This document shows positions 40,753 through 48,559 of a DNA stretch of 64,000 bases, one piece after another. Position numbers and translations under genes: made by a program. Location of the stretch: positions 1 to 64,000 of the forward strand of contig JAJYPN010000010.1 in NCBI GenBank assembly GCA_021795395.1, in the 5' to 3' direction. The notes beneath the pieces were generated by a model. It had not been told where the DNA came from. It saw only the letters and a list, made by a program, of their open reading frames with translations, and searched no databases. The number at the start of each line of letters is the position of its first letter. The first letter of the stretch is position 1. This DNA comes from Pseudomonadota bacterium (GTDB taxonomy: Bacteria; Pseudomonadota; Gammaproteobacteria; Burkholderiales; Sulfuriferulaceae).

Positions 40753-42228
40753 ATGAATAATATCAATTATATATTCGGAAATAAATATAAGGAAGAAAAC
40801 TGTTTCGCGTCCATATGCGCACCTGGATTTTTACAAAGCGTAGCGGTGTTGTTGGGGCTGACCATGATTCAAACTGCGTTGGCGCAGCCCGTGGATCCGG
40901 CTGAAAAAATCGCTGAAATCGCCAGCCCAGCCGACTGGAGCGCGACTTCTGCAGTAACGCCGGGTGGCGCATCCGCCGATGCAGCAAGCTCCCCCCCTTG
41001 GGCGATTTACGGCCAGTACACCAACGTGTACCAGTGGCATCCCGCATTCCATTCTCCCTATTCAGGCCCGAACAGTCTGACTGCGACCAATAATGGCGAG
41101 CAGACCAACGATGCCACCCTGTATCTGGGCTATCGGCTGTCGTCTGCTACCGAATTCTGGATCAATCCCGAATACGATCAGGGCTTTGGCTTGAACGATA
41201 CGCAGGGGATGGCGGGTTTCCCCAGCGGCGAATCGTACAAGATAGGGGCGAATGATCCGTATTACCGCACGCCGCGCCTATTTATGCGGCACATCATCGA
41301 TTTGGGAGGAGAAATGCAAGCGATCGAGGCACAGCCCAATCAGATGGCAGGTAGGCGAAGCGCGGATAATCTGGTGTTGACGCTAGGCAAATTTGCGGTG
41401 ACCGATGTGTTCGACACCAACACCTACGCGCACGATCCGCGTATCGATTTTTTCAACTGGTCGGTTATCGATGCCGGAGCCTTCGATTATGCGGCCGATT
41501 CCTGGGGCTACAGCTATGGCGCGAGCGCGGAGTGGACTCATGCCTGGTGGACTTGGCGCAGCGGAATATTTGACTTGTCGACGGTACCGAATAGCGAAAA
41601 ACTCAGCGAGAATTTGAGTGAATTCGAATTGGTGACGGAATTCGAGGCGCGCCATCAGTGGCGCAGTTTGCCGGGAAAAATCAAGGTGCTGGTGTTTGCA
41701 AACCATGCGCCCATGGGCAGCTACGGGCAAGCGGTAGCGCTGGGCCGGCAGACCGGCACGACCCCGAGTACCGCTCTGGTGCGCCAAATGAACTGGCGGC
41801 CGGGGGCGGAATTGAATATGGAACAGGCGGTAAGCGATAGCCTTGGCATCTTCGGCCGTGCCAGCGTGAACGATGGCGCATTGGAAGCGTATGACTTTAC
41901 CGATATCAATCAATCCGTGTCCGCCGGATTCTCGTTGCAAGGCAAATCGTGGGGTCGCGAACAGGATACGGTGGGTCTGGCTTACGTAGTGAACGGGATT
42001 TCCCGTTCGGCGCAATCCTATTTTGCCGCAGGCGGTTTGGGAATATTGATAGGCGATGGGCGCTTGCCGCATTACGGCTATGAAACTATTACCGAGACGT
42101 ATTATTCATGGCAGCTACAGCGTCATCTGGCGCTGAGCTTCGATTATCAATACGTTGTCAACCCGGCCTATAACGCCGATAGAGGACCGGTAAACATATT
42201 TGCCGTACGTACCCATTTGAATTTTTAG
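40753..42228 (+). CDS. OprB-like carbohydrate-selective-type porin
   Basis: A 491-residue outer-membrane barrel. A signal peptide (ending near TALAQ) is preceded by an unusually long, charged N-terminus (about 25 residues). The mature protein has the OprB pattern: WAIYGQYTNVYQWHPAFHSPY, repeated amphipathic strands, and a C-terminal phenylalanine (RTHLNF). AAGGAA lies seven bases before the ATG. The Nramp transporter gene follows after 77 bases, so a joint role in moving a divalent metal across both membranes is likely. OprB homologues beside metal transporters have been interpreted as metal porins elsewhere; substrate here is inferred. Confidence 0.8.
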   Translation: MNNINYIFGNKYKEENCFASICAPGFLQSVAVLLGLTMIQTALAQPVDPAEKIAEIASPADWSATSAVTPGGASADAASSPPWAIYGQYTNVYQWHPAFHSPYSGPNSLTATNNGEQTNDATLYLGYRLSSATEFWINPEYDQGFGLNDTQGMAGFPSGESYKIGANDPYYRTPRLFMRHIIDLGGEMQAIEAQPNQMAGRRSADNLVLTLGKFAVTDVFDTNTYAHDPRIDFFNWSVIDAGAFDYAADSWGYSYGASAEWTHAWWTWRSGIFDLSTVPNSEKLSENLSEFELVTEFEARHQWRSLPGKIKVLVFANHAPMGSYGQAVALGRQTGTTPSTALVRQMNWRPGAELNMEQAVSDSLGIFGRASVNDGALEAYDFTDINQSVSAGFSLQGKSWGREQDTVGLAYVVNGISRSAQSYFAAGGLGILIGDGRLPHYGYETITETYYSWQLQRHLALSFDYQYVVNPAYNADRGPVNIFAVRTHLNF

Positions 42229-42305
42229 CATAGGGAATATCCAGCGCTCAATTTTGAGACCTTTTGCGCCTGAGCGCGGATGATAATTTCGATAAGGATG
42301 ATTTG

Positions 42306-43949
42306 ATGTCAAGAATACCTGAACGCATACCAGCCCCGACGCCCAGTGCGGTACTGGATGAAGCCCATGTCGGCGATATCCGCGGGGCGCTCGGTACGAT
42401 ACGTCGCGGCGATACGTCCGGCCGTAATTCGTTGGGCGCCCGGCTGCGGACTCTGCTCGCCATAATCGGCCCGGGATTGATTGTGATGGTCGGTGACAAC
42501 GATGCCGGCGCATTCAGCACGTATTCGCAGGCCGGCCAAAATTACGGTTACACGTTGTTATGGACTCTGATCATGTTGATTCCGGTGCTTTATGTGAATC
42601 AGGAAATGGTATTGCGGCTGGGAGTGGTAACCGGAATAGGTCATGCCCGCCTGATACTGGAGCGTTTCGGAAAATTCTGGGGCGCGTTCAGCGTAATCGA
42701 TTTGCTGCTGCTCAATGCCCTGACCATCGTGACGGAATTCATCGGTATCGATCTCGGTCTGCGTTATCTCGGTTTGCCCAGCGTACCCGGTGTATTGCTG
42801 TCGGCGGCCGTGGTGATGTTTGCGGTAAGCACGGGAGATTTTCGCCGGTTCGAGCGATTTGCACTCTTTCTGGTAGCGGGTTCGCTGGTTATGTTGCCCA
42901 TGTATCTGATCGTGCATCCGCCTTTCGCCGAAGTGCTGCACCATACTCTGGTACCGTCTTTGCCGGAAAACGGCAAGCTCAGTGATGTGATGCTGTTGAT
43001 TATCGGTATCGTCGGTACGACGGTCGCTCCCTGGCAACTCTTTTTTCAGCAAAGTTACGTGATCGACAAACGGATTACGCCGCGCTTCATGAAGTACGAA
43101 CGTATCGATCTGATAGCGGGGATAGCGGTCGTGATGCTGGGCGCCATTGCCATAATTTCTACCGCAGCGTATGCATTCAAGGGACATACGGAATTCGGCC
43201 ATTTTACCGATGTTGCCGCAGTGGCGTCAGGCATGCAAAAATATTTCGGTAAGCTGCCCGCGATCCTGTTTGTGGTTGCGCTGATCGATTCCTGTATCAT
43301 CGGTGCCGCGGCAGTATCGCTTTCCACCGCTTATGCCATCGGCGATGTGCTGTCGCTCAAACATTCGCTGCACCGCAAGCCGTCGGAAGCCAAAGGATTT
43401 TATGCGATCTATTTTGTGCTGATCGTGATTGCCGCCGCGCTTGTGCTTGCGCCGAACGTTCCTCTGGGTCTGCTGACGTCCGCCGTGCAGACGCTGGCGG
43501 GAGTGCTGCTGCCGAGCGCAACGGTGTTTCTGTTGCTGCTATGCAACGATAAGGCGGTGCTGGGGCCTTGGGTAAACAGTCAGGCAGTCAATATATTTAC
43601 CGGAACGGTAGTGGCGATCCTGGTCATACTGTCGGTGATCCTGACCGCATCGGTGCTGTTTCCGCAGATCACCTCGTTACAGATCGAGTCGATTATCGCC
43701 GGGGGCAGTATTTTCGGACTGATCGTAACTGTTATCATGCTGCTGGTTCGAAGAATGAAACGCGATGGCATAAGCGAAACGCCGGTCGATCCTTCCGTCC
43801 GCGATAGTTGGCGCATGCCGCCGCTGGAACAATTGGCTCCCGCCAATATGAGTTTGTCGACCCGTTTCTGGATGGGCGTATTGCGGGGCTATCTGCTGAT
43901 CGCGGCGGGTTTGGTGCTGGTACGCATCATCTTGCTGGCGATCGGATGA
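42306..43949 (+). CDS. Nramp-family divalent metal transporter with altered metal site
   Basis: A 547-residue inner-membrane transporter with about eleven helices. The ATG at 42306 has AAGGATG upstream. The first-helix motif of canonical Nramp proteins, DPGN, reads NDAG here (GDNDAGAFSTYSQAGQNYG). The sixth-helix MPH motif reads APW (TTVAPWQLFFQQSY), so the metal-coordinating methionine is alanine. Loss of that methionine is known in Nramp-related magnesium transporters and changes selectivity. A cytoplasmic N-terminus of about 50 residues and an extra C-terminal helix are also present. I give no mntH symbol because the substrate is uncertain. Confidence 0.85.
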   Translation: MSRIPERIPAPTPSAVLDEAHVGDIRGALGTIRRGDTSGRNSLGARLRTLLAIIGPGLIVMVGDNDAGAFSTYSQAGQNYGYTLLWTLIMLIPVLYVNQEMVLRLGVVTGIGHARLILERFGKFWGAFSVIDLLLLNALTIVTEFIGIDLGLRYLGLPSVPGVLLSAAVVMFAVSTGDFRRFERFALFLVAGSLVMLPMYLIVHPPFAEVLHHTLVPSLPENGKLSDVMLLIIGIVGTTVAPWQLFFQQSYVIDKRITPRFMKYERIDLIAGIAVVMLGAIAIISTAAYAFKGHTEFGHFTDVAAVASGMQKYFGKLPAILFVVALIDSCIIGAAAVSLSTAYAIGDVLSLKHSLHRKPSEAKGFYAIYFVLIVIAAALVLAPNVPLGLLTSAVQTLAGVLLPSATVFLLLLCNDKAVLGPWVNSQAVNIFTGTVVAILVILSVILTASVLFPQITSLQIESIIAGGSIFGLIVTVIMLLVRRMKRDGISETPVDPSVRDSWRMPPLEQLAPANMSLSTRFWMGVLRGYLLIAAGLVLVRIILLAIG

Positions 43950-44364
43950 AAACAGGGCTGTAACAATCTATCGATTCAATGCTGTTGCGGGAGGAGTACC
44001 GTAGGAATGAAAGGAATATTCTTCCTCAATACGCCAGGCGGCGAATAAAATTCGTTGAGAAAAAGCCCGCTGTTCCGAAAGCCCCGCTCTAAAATGACTT
44101 GACCGGCGGTGGCTTTGCCCATCATACTTTATTTAATACGATGCCATGTATCGACGGCATGAATTCTATTAAAACTTGCTATAGCCATAATTTAATTCCA
44201 CATACAGAATTTTAAAAAACGTACGTTATATACCCAAGGCAATACAATTCGACAGTAGGTTTACGTACTGATCCATCATGGCAAGGATATCGGTTGCGGG
44301 TGGAAATTTACGATTCTGAAATAAAATGATTTGATCATCAAGTTTGCGTTCCAAAATTATACTA
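43950..44364. other. Intergenic region
   Basis: About 415 bases between the Nramp gene and the membrane GGDEF-EAL gene. AT content rises from 44130 onward. No gene with a ribosome-binding site, no clear intrinsic terminator and no convincing promoter pair was found. Confidence 0.5.
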
Positions 44365-47300
44365 ATGATAAATAAGTTTGGTCACCTACTGACGATTGCG
44401 AATATCCGCCGAGGAACAAGATTATTCGTTCTTGGAATGGCGATGTTCGTGGCATTATTTTCATGGGTTTCCTGGCAAACCGAAAAGGAGGAAGCTGCCC
44501 GGCAAATGTCGCTGCTGGCAGAACTCAGCGTCAAATCGATCAATTTTTATTTTGCTCATATCCAGAATGATCTGTCTGGATTAAGCCAGCAAATCGTTGA
44601 TAAAAACGGCGAGTTTCTGGTGATTCGTACGCAGGAATCGCTGTATCGGTTTCTCGACGCGAATCGCGATCTTGCCAATATGACGGTTGCCGACCTGAAT
44701 GGGCAATTGGTTGCAGCTGCCTTTAAAACACCCGGGCAGCCTCTTGCTGATATCAGCGGCGATCCGACGTTCGTCAAGGCGCGGGAAGCTTTGATGGCCG
44801 GTCAGCCATTTTATATCGGCCGCCCCATTTTCGGTCATGTCGTCAAGGAATGGGTAGCGACGATCCGCTACGGCGTACGCGATGGTTCAGGCAGATTATG
44901 TTATATCCTGAATGCGTCCATTCCGTTGTCGAAGTTGCTGAGCTTGTGGAAAAGCATTTATTTGCCCAGGCATTTTCAAATGGGCTTGCTGCTCGACACC
45001 GGTTATTTGTTAAGCCTGTATCCCGATCCCGATGCCGCACATATGCAACAGGTATATGGGGCACCCAGAACCGATGCCCTGGCGGATTTATTGCGCCGCC
45101 AGGGTTATCGCGATCGAGGTATCATCACGGGTTATAATTCCGCCAGCCATGCCGATTACGAATTCGCCTATTTCAAACTTTCCAATTATCCCATAACGTT
45201 TTTTGTGGCCGCATCGGTGTCGCATTTCGAACTAGAATGGTGGAAACATAATCAGGCTTTTTATCTGCTGAGTTTGATTTTTACCGTTAGCGGAATCAGT
45301 GCGTTTTACTGGATAGTAAAACGCAAGGAAAGCTGGATTATCGAAAAAAGACAACAGGAAGGAAAATTCCGCGCCATTTACGAAGGCTCCAACGATGCCA
45401 TTATCCTGTTGAGCAGAGAAGGTTTTTTTGATTGCAATCAACGGGCATTGCGCCTGTTCGGAATCAAGGATAAAGCCCAGTTTCTAACAAGCAATGTAGC
45501 GAGTTTTTCTTCTGACCGGCAACCGGATGGGCAGGATTCGGTTTCGGCAGCCAATTCCCATATCCTCGCCGCATTCAAACAAGGCTCTCATCGTTTCGAA
45601 TGGATTTGCCGGCATCATGACGGCGAAGAGTTTTATGCGGAAATTCTCCTGTCCGTATTTTATCTTGCCGAAAAACGTGTTTTACAGGCGACGGTCAGGG
45701 ATATTTCCCATCGCAAGAAAATCGAAGCGGAATTGCATGCGACGCTGGAACGTTTGCAGGCTGCCAATGAAAAGCTGGACCTGGAAAAGGAACTGAATCA
45801 GAAAATCATAGAAACTTCGCCCGTAGGTATCGCCATTTACAATGAACAAGGTAATTGTATCGCGGCCAATCCCGCTTTATGCCAGCATATCGGCGGAAGC
45901 CGATCGCAAATTCTCGGAATGAATTTTCATCGTATCGATACGTGGAAAGCCTCGGGTATTTACGATCTGGCGATGCAAGCCCTGCAAACGAGCGAACCCG
46001 TATCGGATAATATCGAGATCGTGTCCAGTTTCGGCAAGGCGGTGAAACTGGGTATCATATTGTGCCCGTTATACAGCAGCGGTCATCAGCATTTGATGTT
46101 CCTGACCACCGATCTGACTGAATCGCTGCACGCCAAACAAGCGCTCGAAGAGAGCGATGAACGATTTCATCGCGTCGTTTTCGAAGCGCCGATACCTATC
46201 ATGATCCACGCAGAAGATGGCGAAGTCCTCGAAGTCAACAAGGTTTGGAGCGAAATTACCGGATACACGCGCGCCGACATTCCTACCACTCAAATCTGGA
46301 CGGAAAAAGCTTACGGTCTGCGTGCAAGAGAAGTTCAGAAAAAAATCCAGCAGCTTTATGCCTTGAAGCAAAAAGTCTATCAGGGCGAATTCATCATCCG
46401 CTGCAAGGACGGTTCAACCCGGATATGGGAGATCAATGCAGCGCCCGCCGGCGTGATGCCGGATGGGCGCAGCTACCTTATCAGCGCAGCGCAGGATATA
46501 ACGGAGCGCAAGGCGGCACAGGAGCAGGTTGAATTTTTGGCTTATCACGATGCGTTGACGGGCTTGCCCAATCGTTTGCTTGCCAGGGAACGCTTTGAAA
46601 TGGCGCAAGCTTTTTCCGAGAGACTGGGTTCCAAAGCGGCTTTAATATTTTTGGATCTCGATAATTTCAAGCTGATCAACGATTCATTGGGTCACGGAAT
46701 CGGAGATCTCCTGCTTAAAACCGTAGCGGCGAGGCTCAGGGAAGCCTTGCGTGATTCCGATACCCTGAGCCGGCAGGGCGGCGACGAATTTCTGATCGTG
46801 TTGGGCGAAATGCCGAATCTTGACGCCATAAGAGGGATTGCGGAAAAAATCCTGGCGCTGATGCTGGAAACCTTTTCCATAGAAGAAAACGAGTTATCGA
46901 TTTCCTTGTCTATCGGTATTGCAGTTTATCCGGAAGATGGGAACGACTACGATACCCTGCTCAAAAAGGCCGATACCGCGATGTATCAGTCCAAAATTGC
47001 GGGACGCAATACCTATCGGTTTTATGTCGAGCAGATGAACATTGATGCCATTGAGCATCTGCAAATACGTAATAATTTACGTAAGGGGATGGAACGGCAG
47101 GAATTCGTTCTGCATTATCAACCGCAGATCGATCTGTCCAGCGATACCGTAATCGGGGCAGAAGCTCTGGTGCGCTGGAATCACCCCGAGCTGGGGATGA
47201 TTTCGCCCGCCCGTTTCATTCCGTTGGCGGAAGAAAGCGGAATGATCATCCGATTGGGCGAATGGGTACTCGAAGAAGCCTGTCGGCAGGGTATGGCATG

Positions 47301-47853
47301 GCGCGCAGCCGGATTGCCCGCGCTGGTAATGGCGGTCAATCTGTCGGCGGTGCAGTTCAAGCACGGCGATCTGGAAAAAACCGTGATACGCGCGCTTTCT
47401 CAGTCCGGACTGGATCCCGCCTTGCTGGAACTGGAATTGACGGAATCGATATTGATTTCCGACACGGAAAAGGTGTTGGTGATGGTGCAGCGTCTGAAAG
47501 CCTTGGGCATAAAATTATCGATCGACGATTTCGGCACCGGTTATTCCAGTCTTTCCTATCTCAAGCGGTTTGCCGTGGACAAGCTGAAAATCGATCAATC
47601 GTTTGTTCGTGACATGTCCAACGACCCCAACGACGCGATCATAGTGCGCACCATCATACAGATGGCCAAGAGCCTCAATCTCAAAACCATAGCGGAAGGG
47701 GTGGAAACCCAGCGTCAACTGGCCATGCTGGGATTGCAGCGGTGCGATGAAGCGCAGGGGTATTATTTTGCAAAGCCTATGCCCGCTGATGAATTTGCCA
47801 TGTACCTGGTTGGCATGCAGCAAAACGTAAGCCTCCGCAGCTGCCCAGAATAA
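44365..47853 (+). CDS. Membrane sensor PAS-PAS-PAS-GGDEF-EAL protein
   Basis: A 1162-residue c-di-GMP enzyme with a periplasmic sensor. Two membrane helices (about residues 20-38 and 294-313) bracket a Cache-like extracellular domain. Three PAS domains follow (about 335-455, 480-600, 610-725). The GGDEF site RQGGDEF is near residue 804 with inhibitory-site RDSD before it; the EAL domain starts at AEALVRWNHP near 932 and keeps LTES, DDFGTGYSS, LKIDQSF and AEGVE. Both catalytic activities may be intact. I chose the ATG at 44365 over a TTG at 44344; neither has a strong ribosome-binding site. Confidence 0.9.
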   Translation: MINKFGHLLTIANIRRGTRLFVLGMAMFVALFSWVSWQTEKEEAARQMSLLAELSVKSINFYFAHIQNDLSGLSQQIVDKNGEFLVIRTQESLYRFLDANRDLANMTVADLNGQLVAAAFKTPGQPLADISGDPTFVKAREALMAGQPFYIGRPIFGHVVKEWVATIRYGVRDGSGRLCYILNASIPLSKLLSLWKSIYLPRHFQMGLLLDTGYLLSLYPDPDAAHMQQVYGAPRTDALADLLRRQGYRDRGIITGYNSASHADYEFAYFKLSNYPITFFVAASVSHFELEWWKHNQAFYLLSLIFTVSGISAFYWIVKRKESWIIEKRQQEGKFRAIYEGSNDAIILLSREGFFDCNQRALRLFGIKDKAQFLTSNVASFSSDRQPDGQDSVSAANSHILAAFKQGSHRFEWICRHHDGEEFYAEILLSVFYLAEKRVLQATVRDISHRKKIEAELHATLERLQAANEKLDLEKELNQKIIETSPVGIAIYNEQGNCIAANPALCQHIGGSRSQILGMNFHRIDTWKASGIYDLAMQALQTSEPVSDNIEIVSSFGKAVKLGIILCPLYSSGHQHLMFLTTDLTESLHAKQALEESDERFHRVVFEAPIPIMIHAEDGEVLEVNKVWSEITGYTRADIPTTQIWTEKAYGLRAREVQKKIQQLYALKQKVYQGEFIIRCKDGSTRIWEINAAPAGVMPDGRSYLISAAQDITERKAAQEQVEFLAYHDALTGLPNRLLARERFEMAQAFSERLGSKAALIFLDLDNFKLINDSLGHGIGDLLLKTVAARLREALRDSDTLSRQGGDEFLIVLGEMPNLDAIRGIAEKILALMLETFSIEENELSISLSIGIAVYPEDGNDYDTLLKKADTAMYQSKIAGRNTYRFYVEQMNIDAIEHLQIRNNLRKGMERQEFVLHYQPQIDLSSDTVIGAEALVRWNHPELGMISPARFIPLAEESGMIIRLGEWVLEEACRQGMAWRAAGLPALVMAVNLSAVQFKHGDLEKTVIRALSQSGLDPALLELELTESILISDTEKVLVMVQRLKALGIKLSIDDFGTGYSSLSYLKRFAVDKLKIDQSFVRDMSNDPNDAIIVRTIIQMAKSLNLKTIAEGVETQRQLAMLGLQRCDEAQGYYFAKPMPADEFAMYLVGMQQNVSLRSCPE

Positions 47854-47863
47854 ACCCATACGC

Positions 47864-48559
47864 CTAGACATGTACTTCAAAGATTCGCCCTATGCCGGTG
47901 GTAATCAGCATGGCCAGAGCGCTCCAGAATGTGACGCGCCAGATCCCTGTCCTGACGTTCGAGCCGCCTGTATAAGCGCCCAAACCTCCCAATAAGGCCA
48001 AAAATGCCAACGACGCGATGCCGACGATCGGTATCAGAACATTGACGGGCGACAGGGCTACGATCGATAGCGGCAATGCTGCGCCGACTGAAAAACTGCA
48101 TGCCGAAGCAAAGGCGGCCTGTAACGGGTGTGACTGCATGGTCGCTGTGATTCCCAAGCCGTCGCGCGCATGCGCTCCCAGAGCATCCCGTTTCATCAAC
48201 TGTTCGGCAACCTGCGCCGCAAGTTCGGGTTCCAGCCCTCTTTTAGCGTAAATGTTGGCAAGTTCGCGCTGCTGATCGTCATAATTGGATTCGATTGCCT
48301 TGCGTTTTTCTTCCAGCGCGGTCTGTTCCGAATCCGATTGGGAATGTACGGAAACATATTCGCCGGTTGCCATCGACATGGCGCCCGCTACCAGTCCCGA
48401 AACGCCAGCTACCATAATGCTGTGATGCTGGGCATGCGAGGCTGAAACACCCAATACCAGACTGGACGTCGAAACTATGCCATCGTTGGCCCCGAGCACT
48501 GCTGCGCGCAGCCAGCCTATGTTTTTAAGTCGGTTTTGCGTAGATGGGTGATCGGTCAT
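47864..48559 (-). CDS. VIT1/CCC1 family Fe2+/Mn2+ transporter
   Basis: A 231-residue membrane protein with about five helices, related to yeast Ccc1 and plant VIT1, which move ferrous iron or manganese out of the cytosol. The start region LGANDGIVSTSSLVLGV and the MATGEYVSVHSQSDSE segment are family hallmarks. A Glu-rich soluble helical part between helices 2 and 3 (about residues 75-125) is the metal-binding domain in this family. It converges with the preceding gene and has no operon partner. It adds to the metal-transport theme of this stretch. Confidence 0.92.
   Translation of the reverse strand: MTDHPSTQNRLKNIGWLRAAVLGANDGIVSTSSLVLGVSASHAQHHSIMVAGVSGLVAGAMSMATGEYVSVHSQSDSEQTALEEKRKAIESNYDDQQRELANIYAKRGLEPELAAQVAEQLMKRDALGAHARDGLGITATMQSHPLQAAFASACSFSVGAALPLSIVALSPVNVLIPIVGIASLAFLALLGGLGAYTGGSNVRTGIWRVTFWSALAMLITTGIGRIFEVHV

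Follow-up and report, generated by a model that had tools for sequence, protein, structure and literature searches.

Among proteins of the Nramp fold, the Nramp-related magnesium transporters (NRMT, also written NrmT) are described by the metal-site signature DxxG-TxxA/T (PMC8806188, available part), and MgtE_N-CBS neighbours have been described for NrmT genes (PMC4072509, available part). In the accessible portion of a 2026 preprint, Nramp-related proteins are paraphyletic and, except for the EleNRMT and MntG groups, uncharacterised (PMC12873925). Here we analyzed a stretch of 64,000 nucleotides, hereafter the window, from a Pseudomonadota bacterium of the Sulfuriferulaceae (assembly GCA_021795395.1, contig JAJYPN010000010.1, positions 1 to 64,000), in which an OprB-family porin gene and an Nramp-related transporter gene lie side by side on the plus strand (40753-43949). 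We propose, with a probability of roughly 0.55, that this pair is a Gram-negative Mg2+-uptake module, made of an NRMT-type transporter and its own cation porin, with Mn2+ as a possible second substrate. We favour this reading because of the NRMT-like metal site, relatives preceded by an M-box, MgtE_N-CBS and MgtC neighbours, and the linkage to OprB genes.

The transporter (P0002, 547 residues) is encoded at 42306..43949 on the plus strand, from an ATG at 42306 to a stop at 43949. The longest open reading frame (ORF), which matches PF01566 at E 9.6e-83, begins with a TTG at 42264 and would give 561 residues; by sequence, translation may start at either codon. On transmembrane helix 1 (TM1), D66-A67-G68-A69 (42501..42512) aligns with canonical DPGN and with DAGG of EleNRMT, and on TM6, T238-T-V-A241-P-W243 (43017..43034) takes the place of canonical AxxMPH. 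Relative to the canonical site, the Asp is kept, Asn is replaced by Ala, Met by Ala241 and the first His by Trp243; the second His column holds Gln, so that both canonical TM6 His are replaced, and neither DPGN nor MPH is present. Glu144 on TM3 (42735..42737), as in canonical Nramps and EleNRMT, and Gln395 on TM10 (43488..43490) are kept. The initial annotation had recognised APW in place of MPH, with loss of the methionine ligand, which is confirmed; it had also read NDAG in place of DPGN, a real substitution placed one residue out of register. Its comparison with Nramp-related magnesium transporters holds as well, the change being nearly that of NRMT (DAGA versus DAGG, with the same TxxA-P-W).

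At least 585 stretches of public genomes encode a relative of P0002 at E 1e-3. Locus counts given below refer to the best 80 of these, 61-69% identical to P0002, whose hosts are alpha-, beta- and gamma-proteobacteria together with one Verrucomicrobiota bin and three Actinomycetota; these loci are related and non-independent, several are ended by contig edges, and some are repeats (L011 and L012; L030 and L070, nearly identical). Among the 82 family sequences of the 80 loci, TM1 reads DAGA in 78 and DAGG in four, TM6 reads TT[VI]APW in 82/82, and the TM3 Glu and TM10 Gln are likewise kept in 82/82. As DAGA or DAGG and TT[VI]APW run throughout the 82 relatives, the substitutions are fixed and are not noise. 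The TxxA half of the published signature is matched by P0002; TM1 is of the form DxxA in P0002 and 78/82 relatives, and DxxG in 4/82 and in the Gram-positive proteins at L120, L158 and L162.

By sequence, the closest solved protein is EleNRMT (180.7 bits, E 4e-52), ahead of BfraNramp of clade B (72 bits) and DraNramp (66 bits). The predicted structure of P0002 (predicted local distance difference test score, pLDDT, 85; predicted template modelling score, pTM, 0.86) also has EleNRMT as its top Foldseek match (E 8.8e-18, 30% identity). In our trees, all of them quick searches from which CabNRMT, A. capsulatum NrmT and MntG are absent, P0002 lies outside the canonical Nramp clade (Shimodaira-Hasegawa-like approximate likelihood ratio test, SH-aLRT, 98 and 100) and groups with the long forms in one clade (99 and 100). 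Among the proteins included, it falls in no clade with proven Mn2+ transport, the placement that the initial annotation had named as a refutation. Two stretches mark the long form: residues 17-36, with a conserved LDxAHxGDIxGALGTI, where two short strands are predicted, and, at the C-terminus, an extension beyond the part aligned with EleNRMT (residues 456-547, 43671..43946, plus strand), with a conserved WRMPPL. Judged by its sequence, P0002 is not a canonical Nramp; that it is a long-form NRMT-type protein in a Gram-negative host we hold at the odds given above for the whole module.

The porin gene (P0001, 491 residues, 40753..42228, plus strand) matches PF04966 at E 1.6e-45, with 156.5 bits against a gathering cut-off of 22.9. 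Its product is predicted to form a barrel over about residues 83-490, residues 1-78 being poorly predicted. The 77 bases that the initial annotation gave as the distance between the two genes were measured again as the gap 42229..42305 between both ORFs, and no plus-strand terminator-like site is listed within it. No other OprB gene was found in the window genome, and genome G024 likewise has a single OprB gene, linked to the transporter.

Linkage of the two genes recurs among the relatives. An OprB gene was found within 300 bases of the transporter at 15/80 loci, within 5 kb at 34/80 (24 on the same strand, 10 on the opposite one) and within 10 kb at 36/80. The chance expectation was 0.146 for 37 random points, from 73 OprB matches in 37 genomes, or about 0.3 for 80. 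These 37 genomes, which supply the expectation only, were hand-picked from the 80 loci after these had been seen, plus G000, G010 and G024, and expected counts come from Pfam matches, observed counts from a custom profile. With 34/80 observed against about 0.3 expected, adjacency is above chance. Gene order varies: the window, Ralstonia and Janthinobacterium have the porin upstream of the transporter; in G010, G024, Bradyrhizobium, Dyella, Polaromonas and others it lies downstream.

A magnesium context was found around several relatives. An Rfam scan detected an M-box (RF00380) at 5/9 loci of relatives, and at 4/7 Gram-positive loci of the long subfamily. It precedes subfamily genes whose products are 62.7% (L088), 62.3% (L157), 51.3% (L158) and 50.7% (L162) identical to P0002, as well as the more distant L155 gene (32.8%); from the end of the M-box to the first gene, the distance is 122 to 868 bases at these five loci. 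The same scan found none at L079, L080, L120 and L156. MgtE_N-CBS proteins adjoin the transporters at all five loci tested (L120, L155, L156, L157 and L162), and a cluster assigned to MgtC from the representative tested lies within 5 kb at 13/80 loci, against 0.129 expected for 37 random points.

The linked porins are of a particular kind. Among 28 linked porins encoded on the same strand as the transporter, which include those of the window, G010, G024 and one plasmid and of which some are identical, all but one belong to a single OprB subclade (SH-aLRT 100), distinct from the other porins of the tree, which we take to be the classical OprB porins. In the first porin tree, where unlinked rows were mostly the best-scoring OprB per genome, the 31 rows of this subclade comprise 27 linked on the same strand, two at 5-10 kb and two unlinked. 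The 10 opposite-strand Burkholderiaceae porins and the L073 porin are on the classical side, and their linkage may reflect inherited gene order only. As a control, 20 stretches with lower-scoring OprB genes were taken: seven have an Nramp-type gene, several of them being repeats of linked loci, 12 have none, and L181 has no porin by the profile. The 12 (one repeats L153, and two are contigs of less than 6 kb) have beside the porin a CorC (CorC/CNNM) gene in one case, Kup in two and no queried importer in nine, an RND match being present at two of the nine. Since these 12 porins share the subclade, the idea of an NRMT-exclusive porin family, to which the first tree had pointed, was dropped. Net charge was also considered as a sign of cation selectivity, and is a weak one: the subclade mean is -7.9 against -5.7 for classical OprB, with overlapping ranges.

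Plasmids broaden the list of partners. Fifteen plasmid records hold a subclade-type porin, of which 12 loci were read (H85, H87 and H94 were left out); the ten of these porins new to the trees fall on the subclade side. The neighbour is an NRMT in two cases, another Nramp-related type in three (Spirosoma, Bradyrhizobium and, as a fragment, Massilia), MgtA with MgtC in one (Cupriavidus metallidurans, where the porin precedes mgtA and mgtC), an ABC transporter with MgtC in one (C. taiwanensis), Kup in one (Methylobacterium) and NupC in one. Three have no queried importer; among them, at L196 a CDF gene lies about 3.5 kb from the porin, and an RND gene is present at L200. On the Massilia putida plasmid, the Nramp-related match (L193:4028-4795) is unannotated and lies just ahead of the porin, and DmeF is also present. 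Overall, the subclade tends to lie beside inorganic-cation transporters, with real exceptions. Tentatively, and with less assurance than for the module itself, this OprB subfamily might be an outer-membrane route for inorganic cations that swaps partners: NRMT, MgtA with MgtC, CorC, other Nramp-related types and Kup.

The pair could work as follows. With the Asp kept and Met and Asn lost, the site of P0002 would be wider and could hold partly hydrated Mg2+, as its residues suggest. By analogy with EleNRMT, P0002 would import Mg2+ down its gradient, probably without proton coupling, and Mn2+ may be a second substrate. The adjoining porin, whose linkage is observed, would supply the ion across the outer membrane. 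Mg2+ is most likely the main cargo, and the porin its putative outer-membrane entry.

Several observations weigh against this proposal, here and in the two paragraphs that follow. The fourth TM1 residue of P0002 is Ala, whereas that of published NRMT is Gly. A single clade of all APW proteins with EleNRMT is neither rejected nor proven (approximately unbiased test, AU, p 0.38), and in VIA-align the outward-open DraNramp (6d91) scores slightly higher than EleNRMT (Z 39.4 versus 38.1), so that fold comparison alone gives EleNRMT no preference. No M-box was found within the window, nor in 35/37 genomes searched, for many of which only 55 first-look candidates were scored. The other two genomes have one each, neither ahead of an NRMT: G400:C18:44910-45074 in the Chromobacterium genome of L036 and G396:C1:5515191-5515365 in the Pseudomonas genome of L028; the 10 kb taken around each holds neither an Nramp-type nor an OprB gene. 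A missing M-box is no bar to NRMT membership, since the A. capsulatum NrmT also lacks a riboswitch (PMC4072509, available part). Other magnesium transporters give a mixed picture. In favour of the proposal, CorA, MgtE, MgtC and MgtE_N were not found in the window genome, absences that are provisional at 92.8% completeness; against it, MgtA is present there. Among 18 genomes of the genus, CorA is present in 11, MgtE in eight and MgtA, past the cut-off, in 17; G010 holds CorA together with an NRMT-type transporter, and there is thus no clean swap within the genus.

The cargo may instead be Mn2+, P0002 being an importer of Mn2+ or of divalent transition metals in general and the porin a general cation pore. 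EleNRMT moves Mn2+ too, and EcoDMT with its site changed to the NRMT residues retained Mn2+ transport without acquiring any for Mg2+ (both PMC8806188, available part); the NrmT of A. capsulatum acted as a transporter of Mn2+ (PMC4072509, available part); B. subtilis YcsG (MntG), placed by others among Nramp-related proteins, imports Mn2+; and an MntP-like gene lies near the L158 transporter. We nevertheless consider this explanation unlikely, as M-boxes precede relatives 51-63% identical to P0002, MgtE_N-CBS and MgtC genes are neighbours, and a separate canonical DPGN/MPH protein is present in the window genome (L001) and at 4/80 loci. Further from our proposal, P0002 could be an ordinary Fe2+/Mn2+ MntH whose substitutions arose by chance, or else a defective copy. 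Pfam and NCBIfam do place it under Nramp (NF037982, 57.5 against a cut-off of 50), but MntH models score far below their cut-offs (116.4 of 430; 63.1 of 272.5), the frame is open, the predicted fold is confident, and neither the fixation of the substitutions in 82/82 nor the position outside the canonical clade fits such a protein, which makes this account hardly credible. The suggestion in the initial annotation of a two-membrane route for a metal other than Fe or Mn is upheld in part: the NRMT-like site, the position outside canonical Nramps, the porin linkage that recurs in several groups of bacteria and the M-boxes of Gram-positive relatives speak for it, and Mn2+ is still a candidate cargo.

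Alternatively, the transporter could import Mg2+ and the porin be a mere neighbour that serves another solute, such as a sugar, phosphate or K+. No OprB gene was found within 5 kb at 46/80 loci, the three Actinomycetota included, so that the adjacency which the initial annotation set as a check recurs in several bacterial groups without being general, and the unlinked porin that it named as a refutation is seen in part of the relatives. Actinomycetota have no need for an outer-membrane pore of the OprB kind. Porins of the subclade also stand beside Kup, CorC, an ABC transporter or NupC, or with no recognised importer alongside, and they are barely more acidic than classical OprB. On the other hand, adjacency is kept despite a gene order that varies between lineages, 27/28 same-strand linked porins belong to one subclade off classical OprB, and the recognised partners are mostly inorganic-cation transporters; we regard a mere neighbour as quite improbable.

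The window genome (2.54 Mb) has three Nramp-domain genes: the canonical one on contig 48, P0002 with DAGA/APW, and one on contig 30 (L164:6944-10677, G000) with a mixed site, DAGS on TM1 together with a retained Met (AVIMPW). The latter gene abuts or overlaps an ORF for a P-type ATPase with HMA domains, and its DAGS/AVIMPW type is also found in four further genomes of the genus. Close homologues of P0002, common in public genomes, are rare nearby: one at 60% identity or more is present in 2/18 genomes of the window's family, and E 1e-90 is reached in 2/369 sampled genomes of its class, the window included in both counts. For the pairs of the window (40753-43949) and of G010 (L169:6742-10346), the first porin tree groups the porins as sisters (SH-aLRT 100), whereas in the transporter tree the G010 protein is in a supported group that excludes that of the window, and the gene order is reversed; this hints at separate assembly or transfer. 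The linked porins at L022:11840-14191 and L011:11833-13887, the two tested, are two-barrel fusions, in which OprB comes after an N-terminal OMP_b-brl domain (PF13505). On the Methylobacterium plasmids L118 and L203, the transporter gene lies between a PRA-PH gene annotated hisE and genes for a Na/Pi cotransporter, SLOG and the porin. The VIT1 gene of the window (47864-48559) was rejected as a partner: it lies past a long opposite-strand gene (44344-47853), and VIT1 was absent from the 10 Pfam-tested clusters, of 30, among the relatives' neighbours, where no dedicated VIT1 search was made.

Few NRMTs have been tested so far. The proteobacterial subfamily described here is widespread and carries only the annotation "Nramp family divalent metal transporter"; its context of riboswitches, MgtC and MgtE_N now connects it with magnesium, and linkage connects it with a porin subclade whose members bear carbohydrate-porin annotations. 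If the OprB subfamily is indeed a partner-swapping route for inorganic cations, Mg2+ entry in Gram-negative bacteria can use dedicated porins besides general ones, and many "carbohydrate porin" annotations are misnamed. Whether there are dedicated outer-membrane pores for Mg2+ (or Mn2+) thus becomes a testable question. In a search that covers subscription journals poorly, no published title or abstract on the pairing of a porin with an Nramp or NRMT was found.

Among known systems, P0002 is closest to NRMT, a likeness that rests on EleNRMT (7qia), the Clostridium acetobutylicum proteins Ca_c0685 and Ca_c3329 being outside the comparison. The two share the Nramp fold, the site Asp, the TM3 Glu, the TM10 Gln and TxxA-P-W on TM6, and some relatives of P0002 also have an M-box and MgtE_N-CBS neighbours. 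P0002 differs by DAGA in place of DAGG, about 90 more C-terminal residues, a conserved N-terminal stretch and an identity of only 30%, and by its Gram-negative host, its porin neighbour and the lack of a detected M-box. Canonical Nramp/MntH proteins of clades A, B and C have the same fold; P0002 differs in having W and Q at the two TM6 His positions and in lacking their Asn and Met. The Mn2+ importer MntG of B. subtilis matches P0002 at only 16-17% identity (YcsG model 9a52), its sequence being outside our trees. Classical OprB, the carbohydrate porin, shares PF04966 with the window porin but lies across a branch of SH-aLRT 100; the two linked porins tested have PF13505 as an additional N-terminal barrel domain. 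A parallel for the pair as a whole is FeoP of Acidithiobacillus, likewise an OprB-family porin gene adjoining that of an inner-membrane metal importer, ahead of feoABC; there the importer is FeoB and a Fur box is present, and the likeness drawn here to the window pair is one of gene arrangement (PMC2631029, available part).

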